The notes below the pieces were generated by a model. That model saw nothing but the letters and a program-made list of their open reading frames with translations. It made no database searches and was not told where the DNA came from. Positions 56,862-60,033 of a stretch of 64,000 bases of DNA are shown here, one piece after another (the stretch's first letter is position 1; each line of letters opens with the position of its first letter). Source of the DNA: Phytoamicus setariae (GTDB lineage: Bacteria > Pseudomonadota > Alphaproteobacteria > Rhizobiales > Rhizobiaceae); NCBI RefSeq assembly GCF_016722925.1, contig NZ_JAEQNC010000018.1, positions 1 through 64,000 of the forward strand, in the 5' to 3' direction. Made by a program: the position numbers and the translations under genes.

Positions 56862-58385
56862 ATGTCAGCTCTTTTCGATAGCGCACGCATGGCGATCCGC
56901 CTTCTGGCAGTCCTACTGGTGGCGTTGTGTGCCTTGCCGGCATTGGCATCAAGCCGGGTGGCATTGGTAATCGGCATGTCCAAATACCAGACCATTCCGA
57001 CGCTGGCCAACACGCTCAGCGATGCCACCGACATCGCCACAACGTTACGGAAGCTCGGCTTTCAGGTCGAGACTTCGATCGACCAGCCTTTGGTCGGCCT
57101 CGTCAAGACTCTCAACGACTTCTCGTTCAAGGCCGAAACGGCTGAAATCGCCATGGTCTACTACGCCGGACATGGTGTCGAACTCAATGGCGACAACTTT
57201 CTCATCCCCGTCGATATCCGGATCACCAAGCCGGAACAGATTGCTTCGCAAGCCATCACCCTGAAGAACCTGCTGAATTCGGTGGCCAACGCGCGCAGGC
57301 TGCGCATCGTCATTCTCGACTCCTGCCGCAACAACCCGTTTACGGACTGGCCCTCGCAGGAGTTGGCCAAGGCAAGCTCGCCGGATTACCAGACAGGTGA
57401 AGTCACCAAAATACGCACAGGCGGGCTTGCCGCGCCTTCTGCCGACAAGGGGATGCTCGTTGTCTACGCTGCCAAGGATGGCGAAGTGGCGCTGGATGGC
57501 GAAAGCGGTCACAGCCCCTTTGCGCGCGCACTGCTTTCGGAGCTTCCGGCCCGGAACATCGAAATCGGCATGATGTTTCGACGGGTGCGTGACAAAGTAA
57601 TGCAGGAAACACGGAACAAGCAGGAACCGCATTTCTACGGTTCTCTCTCGGGCATACCCTACTTCCTCGCCGGTGCCGACATGAACGTGGCTGCCCTGAC
57701 CGACCCCAAAAAGGCCTGGGGTTCGCTGGCGCCGGACCAGGAACTGCAACTCGCCTCGCTGGTGGAAGACGGCAATGTCCGCGCGATGATTGGCCTCGGT
57801 TACATGTCACTCAGCCCTGACAAGTCCCGCTTCAAGCCACAAAAGGCATTCGAACTCTTTTCGCGCGCCTCCACCGAGGGCGATCCGGAAGCGATGTTCG
57901 AACTCGCCAAGCTCTACGAAAAAGGCATCGGGGTGAACCAGGATTTCACCAAGGCCGTGGAACTTTACCAAAAATCCGCAGATCTCGGCTTTGCGGACGC
58001 CATCAACGACCTCGGTTTTCTCTACTATCAGGGAGCCAGCGGCTTGGCCCGCGACCGACAAAAGGCGATCGAGCTCTTTCTCAAGGCGGCGGACCTGCGC
58101 CATCCGCAAGCGATGTACAATGTCGCAGCATTGATCGACGACGGCACGATCAAGGGCAAGACACCAGATGATGCCGCGCGCTACCTTTATGCAGCATTGC
58201 GCTCTGGCGTGAAGGACGTGCTGGCGCAACTGTCCGACCGCCCCAATCAGTTCAAACCGGCAACGCGCAAGGCGCTGCAGGCTGAACTGGCAAAAAACCG
58301 CTTCTATTCCGGCAAGATAGACGGCAGTATCGGTCAGGGTACCCAGAGAAGCATGCGCATCGCTTTCGGCGAAACGGCTGAATAG
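56862..58385 (+). CDS. Caspase-like (peptidase C14) protein with Sel1 repeats
   Basis: A 507-residue exported protein. The signal segment is AIRLLAVLLVALCALPALA, with cleavage near residue 29. A caspase-fold domain at about 31-270 keeps the catalytic dyad His104 (YYAGHGVE) and Cys155 (ILDSCRNNPF). Sel1-type tetratricopeptide repeats occupy about 340-450 (AMFELAKLYEKGIGV and two more). The last 45 residues resemble a degenerate peptidoglycan-binding motif (GKIDGSIGQGTQRSM). It should be periplasmic; the substrate is unknown. GAGGG precedes the ATG. It is nine bases from the next gene, so the two form a unit. Confidence 0.85.
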   Translation: MSALFDSARMAIRLLAVLLVALCALPALASSRVALVIGMSKYQTIPTLANTLSDATDIATTLRKLGFQVETSIDQPLVGLVKTLNDFSFKAETAEIAMVYYAGHGVELNGDNFLIPVDIRITKPEQIASQAITLKNLLNSVANARRLRIVILDSCRNNPFTDWPSQELAKASSPDYQTGEVTKIRTGGLAAPSADKGMLVVYAAKDGEVALDGESGHSPFARALLSELPARNIEIGMMFRRVRDKVMQETRNKQEPHFYGSLSGIPYFLAGADMNVAALTDPKKAWGSLAPDQELQLASLVEDGNVRAMIGLGYMSLSPDKSRFKPQKAFELFSRASTEGDPEAMFELAKLYEKGIGVNQDFTKAVELYQKSADLGFADAINDLGFLYYQGASGLARDRQKAIELFLKAADLRHPQAMYNVAALIDDGTIKGKTPDDAARYLYAALRSGVKDVLAQLSDRPNQFKPATRKALQAELAKNRFYSGKIDGSIGQGTQRSMRIAFGETAE

Positions 58386-58394
58386 GAAGTGACG

Positions 58395-59015
58395 ATGTCC
58401 CTCAGGTTTTTCGATGTCACCTTTCGCGCCGTTCTCGTAGGCTCGATGCTGATCTGTGCGCCGGTCGAGGTCGGCGCGCAAAGTGTGGATCGCCCGGACA
58501 AGCCAAATCGCGAGAAAACCCGCGTGGTCAGCCGCCCCCAGGACAAGGATCGGCTACCGCTCAGCCAGCTGACGACGTCCAAAATCTCCCGGGACGTGGA
58601 TGCGATTCGTCGTGAATGCGTCCAGTATAACGATGTTTACCGCATCGACTGCCTGCGCCAAGGCATCGACATGATGCTGGCTACCCTTCCCGAAAACAGC
58701 GAATACGAGCAAGCCAAGAACATTCTTGGCAAAACGAGCGGCCAGCTCAATCATATTGTCAGCGTCTATCAGGACCGTAGCGCAACCAAGCTTGTCCCGG
58801 CACCGGGCGCCAATCCACGCTTCAAGAAGCAGCGGCAATACAGCGCCATCAAACGCAACACCGTCGCGCTGGCCACGAAGCAGGCAACAGCTGCAGTGGA
58901 CGAAGCTGCGACATCGCTTCTTCGCTCAAGCGAAAACTCCGAACGCCGTTACGCCCACTACCAGGAGATTTCCATCGCGGTGGATTCGACCAAGACGCTG
59001 TTAAGGTCGTCCTGA
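58395..59015 (+). CDS. Secreted hypothetical protein paired with the caspase-like gene
   Basis: A 206-residue protein with a signal segment (FRAVLVGSMLICAPVEVGAQ, cleavage near residue 29). The mature part is basic and mostly helical, with two cysteines near residues 75 and 84 (RRECVQYNDVYRIDCLRQG) that could form a disulfide. I recognise no family. AGGAAG lies just before the ATG at 58395, only nine bases after the caspase-like stop. Co-transcription suggests it is a substrate, inhibitor or partner of that peptidase, which is inference. Confidence 0.7.
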   Translation: MSLRFFDVTFRAVLVGSMLICAPVEVGAQSVDRPDKPNREKTRVVSRPQDKDRLPLSQLTTSKISRDVDAIRRECVQYNDVYRIDCLRQGIDMMLATLPENSEYEQAKNILGKTSGQLNHIVSVYQDRSATKLVPAPGANPRFKKQRQYSAIKRNTVALATKQATAAVDEAATSLLRSSENSERRYAHYQEISIAVDSTKTLLRSS

Positions 59016-59018
59016 GCC

Positions 59019-59894
59019 CTATCTGAGAATCCAGTTCAAACTGTCACGCCAGTCGGTCATGCGAACCGGCGTGCCATGCGATCCCGTCTCGAACAGGACG
59101 AACCGGGTCGGATAGCGTTCTGCGAACAAGGATTTGTAAAGTTTCACCTGGTCGGCGGCGGCATAGACACTGTCGCGCGATCCGTGGCTGAAGAACATCG
59201 GCAACCGGGCCTTGTGGGCAACGCTTGAGCCAAAGTTCGGGTCCGTCGCGCCCCCCATGATCATCATGCCCGCAAGCTTGCCGACCGCCTGCGCATCCTT
59301 GCTGATGCCCCAGCAGACGAAACTGCCCATCGACGCACAGGACAGGACCACTCTTGTATTTGGCGAAACTCGGGCAATGTGGCTGATGAGCGCCGATATA
59401 TCAGCCACGCCTTCAGCGTCGAAACTCCTTACGCTCGCGGCGTAATAGACCCCCTGGTTATCGACGGCGAGGTTCTTGAGGCGGTTGAAATTGCCGCCGA
59501 AACTGAAATCGTTGGCGCCGAGCTTGCGATCGCCGCCACGCCCGTGAATGAAAATGACCGCAAACCGCGCGTTCTTCACCTCACCCACCCGCAGCACGTC
59601 GATCGACCGGCCATCCGCCTCAACGGTTTCGAACGCCTGCTGGCGCTTCACGCCGAGCGAAACATACCTGCTCTTCGCACGCCGTTCGGGGATTTCATCG
59701 CGACCGTTGATATCGCGTATCTCCTGATAATCGACCGTGACAAAGCCGCCGCCATCTTCCTGGCTAAGGATTGCCGGATAGGCGAAGAGCGAGTCCTTGT
59801 ACGCCTTGAGTTCAAGCGCGCCAACGGGTAAAGACATCAGGATGAAGGCCGATGCAGCGGCAACCCAGCGCTTCGTCAATTGAACTGTGGACAT
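59019..59894 (-). CDS. Secreted alpha/beta-hydrolase-fold protein
   Basis: A 291-residue exported protein (signal segment WVAAASAFILMSLPVGALE). The hydrolase core has FIHGRGGDRK as oxyanion region and a nucleophile Ser in LSCASMGSF, where the usual first glycine of G-x-S-x-G is Cys. A candidate Asp lies in SHGSRDSVY and the His in ETGSHGTPV near the C-terminus. AAGGGA sits before the ATG at 59894. It converges on the caspase-like pair with a three-base gap and diverges from parE. Substrate unknown. Confidence 0.83.
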   Translation of the reverse strand: MSTVQLTKRWVAAASAFILMSLPVGALELKAYKDSLFAYPAILSQEDGGGFVTVDYQEIRDINGRDEIPERRAKSRYVSLGVKRQQAFETVEADGRSIDVLRVGEVKNARFAVIFIHGRGGDRKLGANDFSFGGNFNRLKNLAVDNQGVYYAASVRSFDAEGVADISALISHIARVSPNTRVVLSCASMGSFVCWGISKDAQAVGKLAGMMIMGGATDPNFGSSVAHKARLPMFFSHGSRDSVYAAADQVKLYKSLFAERYPTRFVLFETGSHGTPVRMTDWRDSLNWILR

Positions 59895-60033
59895 CAGCGT
59901 CCCTTTCCCCGGGCCAGCCGGCCGGCGCTTGCTATCCGGATCTTTGAGCGTAAATCTTGCGATAATCGCGATCTGTCGAGCTTTCTGGCAGAATCCGCTG
60001 ATTCGCGAAACCAACAGGTTTGAAAAGACAGAC

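Follow-up and report, generated by a model that had tools for sequence, protein, structure and literature searches.

Genome comparison gives good support to a genetic coupling between a caspase-like Sel1 protein and a C-terminal domain, here termed the LLRS domain, that is carried by the protein encoded beside it. Both genes lie on the forward strand of the window, by which we mean the whole 64,000-nucleotide stretch of Phytoamicus setariae DNA analyzed: the caspase-like protein (P0001, 507 aa) at 56862 to 58385 and its partner (P0002, 206 aa) at 58395 to 59015, nine bases beyond the caspase stop. We consider the odds slightly better than even (about 0.5) that P0001 is an Arg-specific periplasmic peptidase with clients that carry a C-terminal recognition domain. 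To our knowledge, bacteria commonly encode caspase homologues, few of which have a known natural substrate. The comparison nominates a small set of clients, which have in common a recognition domain and a candidate scissile Arg, so that the role of secreted bacterial caspase-like proteins becomes directly testable, and the pair suggests envelope-protein processing rather than cell death.

P0001 is probably exported. Its probable signal peptide (56862 to 56951, forward strand, as are all features below unless stated), recognized by eye, is hydrophobic and ends ALA|SS, and a hydrophobic leader ahead of the caspase domain is also present in the other caspase orthologue rows compared. The caspase (Peptidase_C14) domain spans residues 32-261 (56955 to 57644) and matched the Pfam model with E 3.3e-34 (119 bits, against a cut-off of 21.4). 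The initial annotation had reported an intact His-Cys dyad, and sequence and orthologue alignment place it at His104 (CAT, 57171 to 57173) and Cys155 (TGC, 57324 to 57326); both residues are kept in 9/9 orthologues and in 32/32 caspase domains among the 40 loci described below. Its assignment of Sel1 repeats and a caspase-like identity was likewise borne out. The Sel1 match reached E 2e-24 (85.6 bits, cut-off 30.7) and recurs in 9/9 orthologues, the best repeat occupies residues 342-376 (57885 to 57989, Pfam) inside the Sel1 array, and residues about 293-450 are matched by solved Sel1 proteins in the PDB. Toward the C-terminus, residues 469-496 (58266 to 58349) form a weak PG_binding_1-like stretch that falls below the cut-off (E 0.0033); 6/9 caspase orthologues have such a C-terminus at E<=0.01, the best at 7.6e-5.

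Three Peptidase_C14 genes were found in the window's genome, and P0001 is the one match to this subfamily at E<=1e-90. The other two lie on contig 12 (L001), where the open frame is 1316 aa long and includes Sel1-like stretches, and on contig 8 (L003). The models compared gave little backing to a defence reading, their matches being weak or below cut-off: the PADLOC 'caspase' model matched with E 1.7e-4 over part of the model only, and the cut-off of NF047832 in NCBIfam (EACC1-associated caspase) was not reached (50.9 against 140 bits). The earlier judgement that this is not a classic defence system is compatible with that weak PADLOC match and with neighbours of the pair in the window that look housekeeping (by eye; the hydrolase alone was scanned against Pfam).

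In the partner, a leader and a polar linker precede a C-terminal domain bearing Cys75 (58617 to 58619) and Cys86 (58650 to 58652), each conserved in 72/72 rows of alignment A5. These are the two cysteines of the mature protein; a third, Cys21, is inside the apparent signal peptide (58395 to 58478, by eye). The secreted-looking two-cysteine partner described in the initial annotation was thus recovered with its coordinates, frame, and gap, and its status as an unrecognised protein held in wider searches: P0002 had no Pfam or NCBIfam family at curated cut-off and no PDB sequence match up to E 10. The 72 members of A5 gave one stray match in Pfam (DUF4265, E 8.9e-4) and one in NCBIfam (E 6.9e-4), and the LLRS domain represents a protein domain family missing from the Pfam and NCBIfam copies searched. 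As delimited by alignments A4/A5 and AlphaFold2, it covers residues 55-206 (58557 to 59012), a helical bundle of about 150 aa with two conserved cysteines and a chain end of the form STKxLLRS plus 0-1 residue. In P0002 the terminal signature occupies residues 202-205 (58998 to 59009) and is followed by one residue; a second, internal Leu-Leu-Arg-Ser stands at residues 175-178. AlphaFold2 modelled the partner alone with block means of 90-98 from residue 51 on and 86 in the last block, and it made the tail part of a short ordered helix, so the tail may be structural. Foldseek comparison of this model with the PDB returned 537 matches to E 10, none at E<=0.001 (best E 0.19). The best hit of a profile search with the partner domain was sc-apCC-4 (E 0.00097), which we take to be a designed coiled coil, and the others were weaker.

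The pair is flanked upstream by a divergent tpiA and downstream by a convergent alpha/beta hydrolase gene (59019-60011, reverse strand), and therefore looks like a bounded two-gene unit (tpiA, secG, pyrG, and parE were named by eye, the hydrolase by Pfam). The partner was detected in 10 of 61 genomes, a set made up of the window's own and those of 60 relatives. Close relatives of the caspase (52-74% identical along most of the protein) occurred in eight other genomes, in one of them (G011) in two pieces, and all eight have the partner beside it. The tenth partner match, in G009, is to a broken copy. Within the limits of the contigs, the gene order tpiA - caspase - partner - hydrolase - parE is common to the Rhizobiaceae loci; in L051 the hydrolase is some 6 kb off, and in G059 the partner is upstream of the caspase in another gene context. 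A close tpiA match was found in three of the four congeners that lack the pair, and there the hydrolase and parE come immediately after tpiA, with caspase and partner both missing, which indicates that the two genes occur together or not at all. The initial annotation had named two outcomes that would count against its reading, a partner gene that is not co-conserved and orthologues without the dyad residues; the partner proved co-conserved with the caspase, and neither outcome occurred.

In G009 (L056 / L099), the broken LLRS gene has in its vicinity a diverged caspase gene that lacks the usual Sel1 match, possibly a decay of the module after a change of the caspase. In Rhizobiaceae the alpha/beta hydrolase is a conserved neighbour of the pair. 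We weighed it as a candidate third module member and rejected it because loci lacking the pair retain it (split into two frames in L280) and because it is about 6 kb away in L065, L068, and L070. Other alpha/beta hydrolases adjoin an LLRS gene in L091 and a caspase gene in L055.

A single-sequence scan of the genome contig collection with P0002 gave no match, and a scan with the partner alignment gave 40 loci, in Rhizobium, Shinella, Pararhizobium, Stappia/Roseibium/Labrenzia, and Rhodobacterales. A full caspase-Sel1 gene was present within 29/40 of these loci, and L064 has the Sel1 end of a caspase at its contig edge. Another caspase accompanies the domain in three (L079, where the neighbour is non-Sel1, L098, and L099). 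The remaining 7/40 have no caspase in the locus, and all seven genomes hold caspase-Sel1 elsewhere. Caspase-Sel1 was found in 9/10 genomes searched for it; the exception, the genome of L098 (G810), carries a tailed, edge-cut copy of the domain beside another caspase and no full-length caspase-Sel1 (best E 5.5e-74). Neighbouring caspase-domain pairs numbered 49, with 41 on the same strand and 8 on opposite strands. Over these 49 pairs, the distances of caspase and partner correlated with r 0.41 (0/2000 permutations as high), a value that we did not weigh because shared ancestry alone can yield it. In a sample of the class (385 genomes) the domain occurred in 2 only, the window's genome and G440.

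The domain was also seen in nine plasmid records (Leisingera, Parasedimentitalea, Phaeobacter). In three of them (L245, L246, L247), where the annotation names the two products 'caspase family protein' and 'hypothetical protein', the pair has chemotaxis genes on one side and type VI secretion genes (TssM, TagF) on the other, and an OmpA gene, a kinase/phosphatase pair, and an M15 peptidase are close by; the gene setting of L097 appears similar by eye.

Phylogenetic profiles were drawn with the caspase-Sel1 subfamily defined by alignment A2 at E<=1e-90, a limit of our own choice, and the LLRS domain by alignment A1 at E<=0.001. In 394 genomes of the window's family, caspase-Sel1 was detected in 21 and the domain in 24, namely the same 21 plus G009 (a pseudogene), G332 (tail replaced), and G085, which has a contig-edge domain fragment identical to that of L098 beside another caspase. 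In 295 genomes of the Rhodobacterales-type family, nearly one per genus, the counts were 26 and 33, the latter comprising the same 26 and seven genomes with tail-less or broken copies (G440, G839, G910, G944, G958, G1020, G1052). At first look 7 (394 sample) and 13 (295 sample) domain candidates and 3 and 5 caspase candidates, respectively, were scored per genome, only part of the total, so misses are possible; some genomes of the 40 loci recur in these samples. A tailed copy was present in 47/47 caspase-bearing genomes (21 + 26), and eight of the ten genomes that have the domain without this caspase have lost or broken the tail. The Fisher values for caspase and domain (7.6e-38 and 6.0e-34) describe association only, as the genomes are related and not independent. 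With the richer model A5, searched in 49 chosen genomes, 26/26 caspase-bearing sample genomes matched and 0/20 caspase-lacking controls did; the other three matches were G807 (the caspase-bearing genome of L096, three times) and, weakly, G440 and G1052. These profiles suggest that the LLRS end domain is a tag retained almost exclusively in genomes with the protease.

Linkage does not fully explain this co-occurrence, since 10/26 Rhodobacterales-type genomes have no fetched copy within about 6 kb of the caspase (G873, G874, G887, G899, G902, G916, G918, G1049, G1055, G1103; the assembly of G1055 is highly fragmented, and the fetched copies leave out its second one). Each of the 47 genomes has one match to the caspase subfamily. 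The 26 caspase-bearing genomes carry one (10 genomes), two (8), or three (8) copies of the domain, with one copy of G1049 being tail-less and one of G1055 a fragment. The tail-less copy, the only one of its kind recorded for caspase-bearing G1049, belongs to L228, where two LLRS-domain genes stand in tandem, one with the signature and one without.

The end of the domain is strongly conserved. In 98/120 distinct domain entries, fragments included and with one listed row having an internal 'motif', the chain ends [LIVMF][LIM]R[STA] plus 0-1 residue; 11 entries have 9-55 residues beyond the signature, nine have no signature, and two are cut at contig edges. Arg204 is invariant in 72/72 rows of A5, partly by choice, as A5 was built without tail-less rows. 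G918 and G1055 have Thr or Ala in place of the signature Ser. Codons for Leu203, Arg204, and Ser205 are mixed (for Arg, CGN in 92/97 and AGR in 5/97), which indicates that the protein sequence is what is kept. A divergent LLRS subfamily (L221, L223-L226, L228-L231) has 9-55 often hydrophobic residues beyond the signature; within the 295-genome sample it was found only in caspase-bearing genomes.

Two carriers of the domain are of adhesin type. The first, in L096, is a 1579-aa protein that has the LLRS domain at its end, together with a TPS secretion domain and four YDG repeats, and is encoded just downstream of a ShlB/POTRA_2 gene and an IalB-like gene; the same genome has two more domain copies, and its caspase-Sel1 gene is on a different contig. 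The second, in L195, is a YDG/MBG_2 protein that likewise terminates in the domain and is cut by the contig edge. The initial annotation had proposed a dedicated protease with its substrate or inhibitor. Co-conservation, joint absence, and the profiles uphold a dedicated pair; a private one is contradicted, the partner being one carrier of a domain that is found elsewhere, including at the ends of adhesin-type proteins. A tag on several exported proteins appears, from these sequences, to fit the facts better than a private inhibitor.

The active site points to the likely specificity. The best structural match of the caspase domain was MALT1 paracaspase (3uo8_B), an animal signalling protein, with Z 26.5 and rmsd 2.5 over 216 aligned residues. 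In this structure alignment, Asp54 of P0001 (57021 to 57023; invariant in 9/9 caspase orthologues) falls on MALT1 Asp365, and Asp153 (57318 to 57320; two residues before the catalytic Cys and kept in 32/32 caspase domains among the 40 loci) falls on Asp462. According to the portion of PMC4626109 available, these two MALT1 residues anchor the P1 Arg in the S1 pocket. No counterpart of a third MALT1 anchor, Glu500, could be placed in the P0001 alignment. An Arg-type S1 site in the enzyme and a near-invariant Arg near the end of the partner make cleavage at, or occupation by, LLR|S the most economical idea.

We therefore envisage, from sequence and models, that the 'protease module' of the initial annotation could be a periplasmic, Arg-specific caspase-like peptidase encoded with one of its dedicated clients. 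Both proteins would be exported, and the Sel1 array of the enzyme would dock the helical bundle of the client, whose C-terminal LLRS domain would act as recognition module. The terminal Leu-Leu-Arg-Ser, or the internal one at 175-178, would then enter the S1 site lined by Asp54 and Asp153, and the client would be cut after Arg, leading to maturation or release of surface proteins. Because the same domain is present on other exported proteins, including a two-partner-secretion adhesin, the enzyme would serve to process a few envelope proteins that bear the tag and would not be a cell-death effector. The tail itself could serve as site, inhibitor, or anchor. An AlphaFold2 model of the pair as a read-through chain (pLDDT 85, pTM 0.64) was not counted as docking evidence.

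Other readings of the same facts have to be weighed against client processing. Mere hitch-hiking, two unrelated genes inherited together at one locus, would explain the common tpiA-parE site in Rhizobiaceae; it is very improbable given the unlinked co-occurrence and the other orientations in Rhodobacterales-type genomes and the joint absence of the pair. That the LLRS protein is a dedicated inhibitor is unlikely. On that reading its terminal Leu-Leu-Arg-Ser would lie in S1 as a pseudosubstrate and keep the co-exported enzyme silent until a signal removes it. The adjacent and often co-directional genes, the fixed Arg near the chain end, and the S1 Asp residues of the enzyme would all suit such a role, whereas the presence of as many as three copies of the domain, many of them unlinked, in genomes with one caspase gene of this kind would not, and a domain that ends adhesin-type proteins is better suited to a tag. 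Quite unlikely, too, is an LLRS protein that acts as activator, chaperone, or structural subunit, with a tail that belongs to the fold or interface and is never cut. The ordered terminal helix of the model agrees with this, and an interface would account equally well for a tail that depends on the caspase being present; the near-invariant Arg-Ser at the end and the Arg-type S1 site would then be coincidence, and the adhesin-type carriers also speak against it.

For a plain protease, cleavage at the terminal LLR|S is an odd outcome, as it removes only one or two residues, and this very short stretch after Arg204 keeps the idea of joining alive. In a sortase-like reaction, a thioester would form at Arg204, Ser205(+1) would be dropped, and the new C-terminus of the client would be joined to an envelope amine. 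Plant asparaginyl ligases are caspase-fold enzymes that join, but we know of no reported ligase activity in family C14, and we regard the scheme as a long shot. It draws on the chain stop 0-1 residue past the Ser that follows the candidate scissile bond (98/120 entries), adhesin-type proteins among the clients, the often hydrophobic extension of the divergent subfamily, and the weak peptidoglycan-binding-like C-terminus of the enzyme. PorU, itself of caspase fold, acts as a sortase according to the available parts of PMC4804311 and PMC4560394. In its full form, which we rate as doubtful, this would be a hitherto unrecognised caspase-fold transpeptidase sorting system of Alphaproteobacteria that reads LLRS-CTERM, cuts between Arg204 and Ser205, and couples clients, including two-partner-secretion adhesins, to the envelope; if true, the LLRS-CTERM system would be a caspase-family counterpart of sortase or PorU.

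Processing of LLRS-tagged clients, the reading we prefer, can be set beside several known systems. A literature search over titles and the beginnings of abstracts gave no description of a caspase-Sel1 and LLRS pair. P0001 resembles the bacterial metacaspases and orthocaspases in its caspase domain with a His-Cys dyad and in its Sel1 joining, Sel1 being one of the four domain types that, according to the accessible part of PMC3501461, are most frequently fused to bacterial metacaspases; orthocaspases cleave after positively charged residues, as stated in the accessible part of PMC6426788. What sets the present enzyme apart is a secreted C-terminal domain that is matched to it across genomes, none being named in the part of PMC3501461 at hand. 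MALT1 paracaspase has the nearest solved fold to P0001, and the two S1 acids that hold the P1 Arg are alike, but MALT1 is without a Sel1 array or export. The proposed processing of adhesins by this enzyme also resembles adhesin proteolysis of the LapG-LapA type: LapG is a periplasmic cysteine peptidase acting on an adhesin, but it belongs to another peptidase family, its site is N-terminal, and no tag domain is involved. In having one peptidase act on a conserved C-terminal domain of several secreted proteins, the proposal is like PorU and type IX secretion as far as the available accounts of that system go. The likeness has limits: P0001 did not reach the Pfam cut-off of Peptidase_C25, the PorU family (16.7 against 23 bits), and the type IX secretion C-terminal domain is, in the available part of PMC4804311, a beta-sandwich, whereas the LLRS domain is modelled as a helical bundle.
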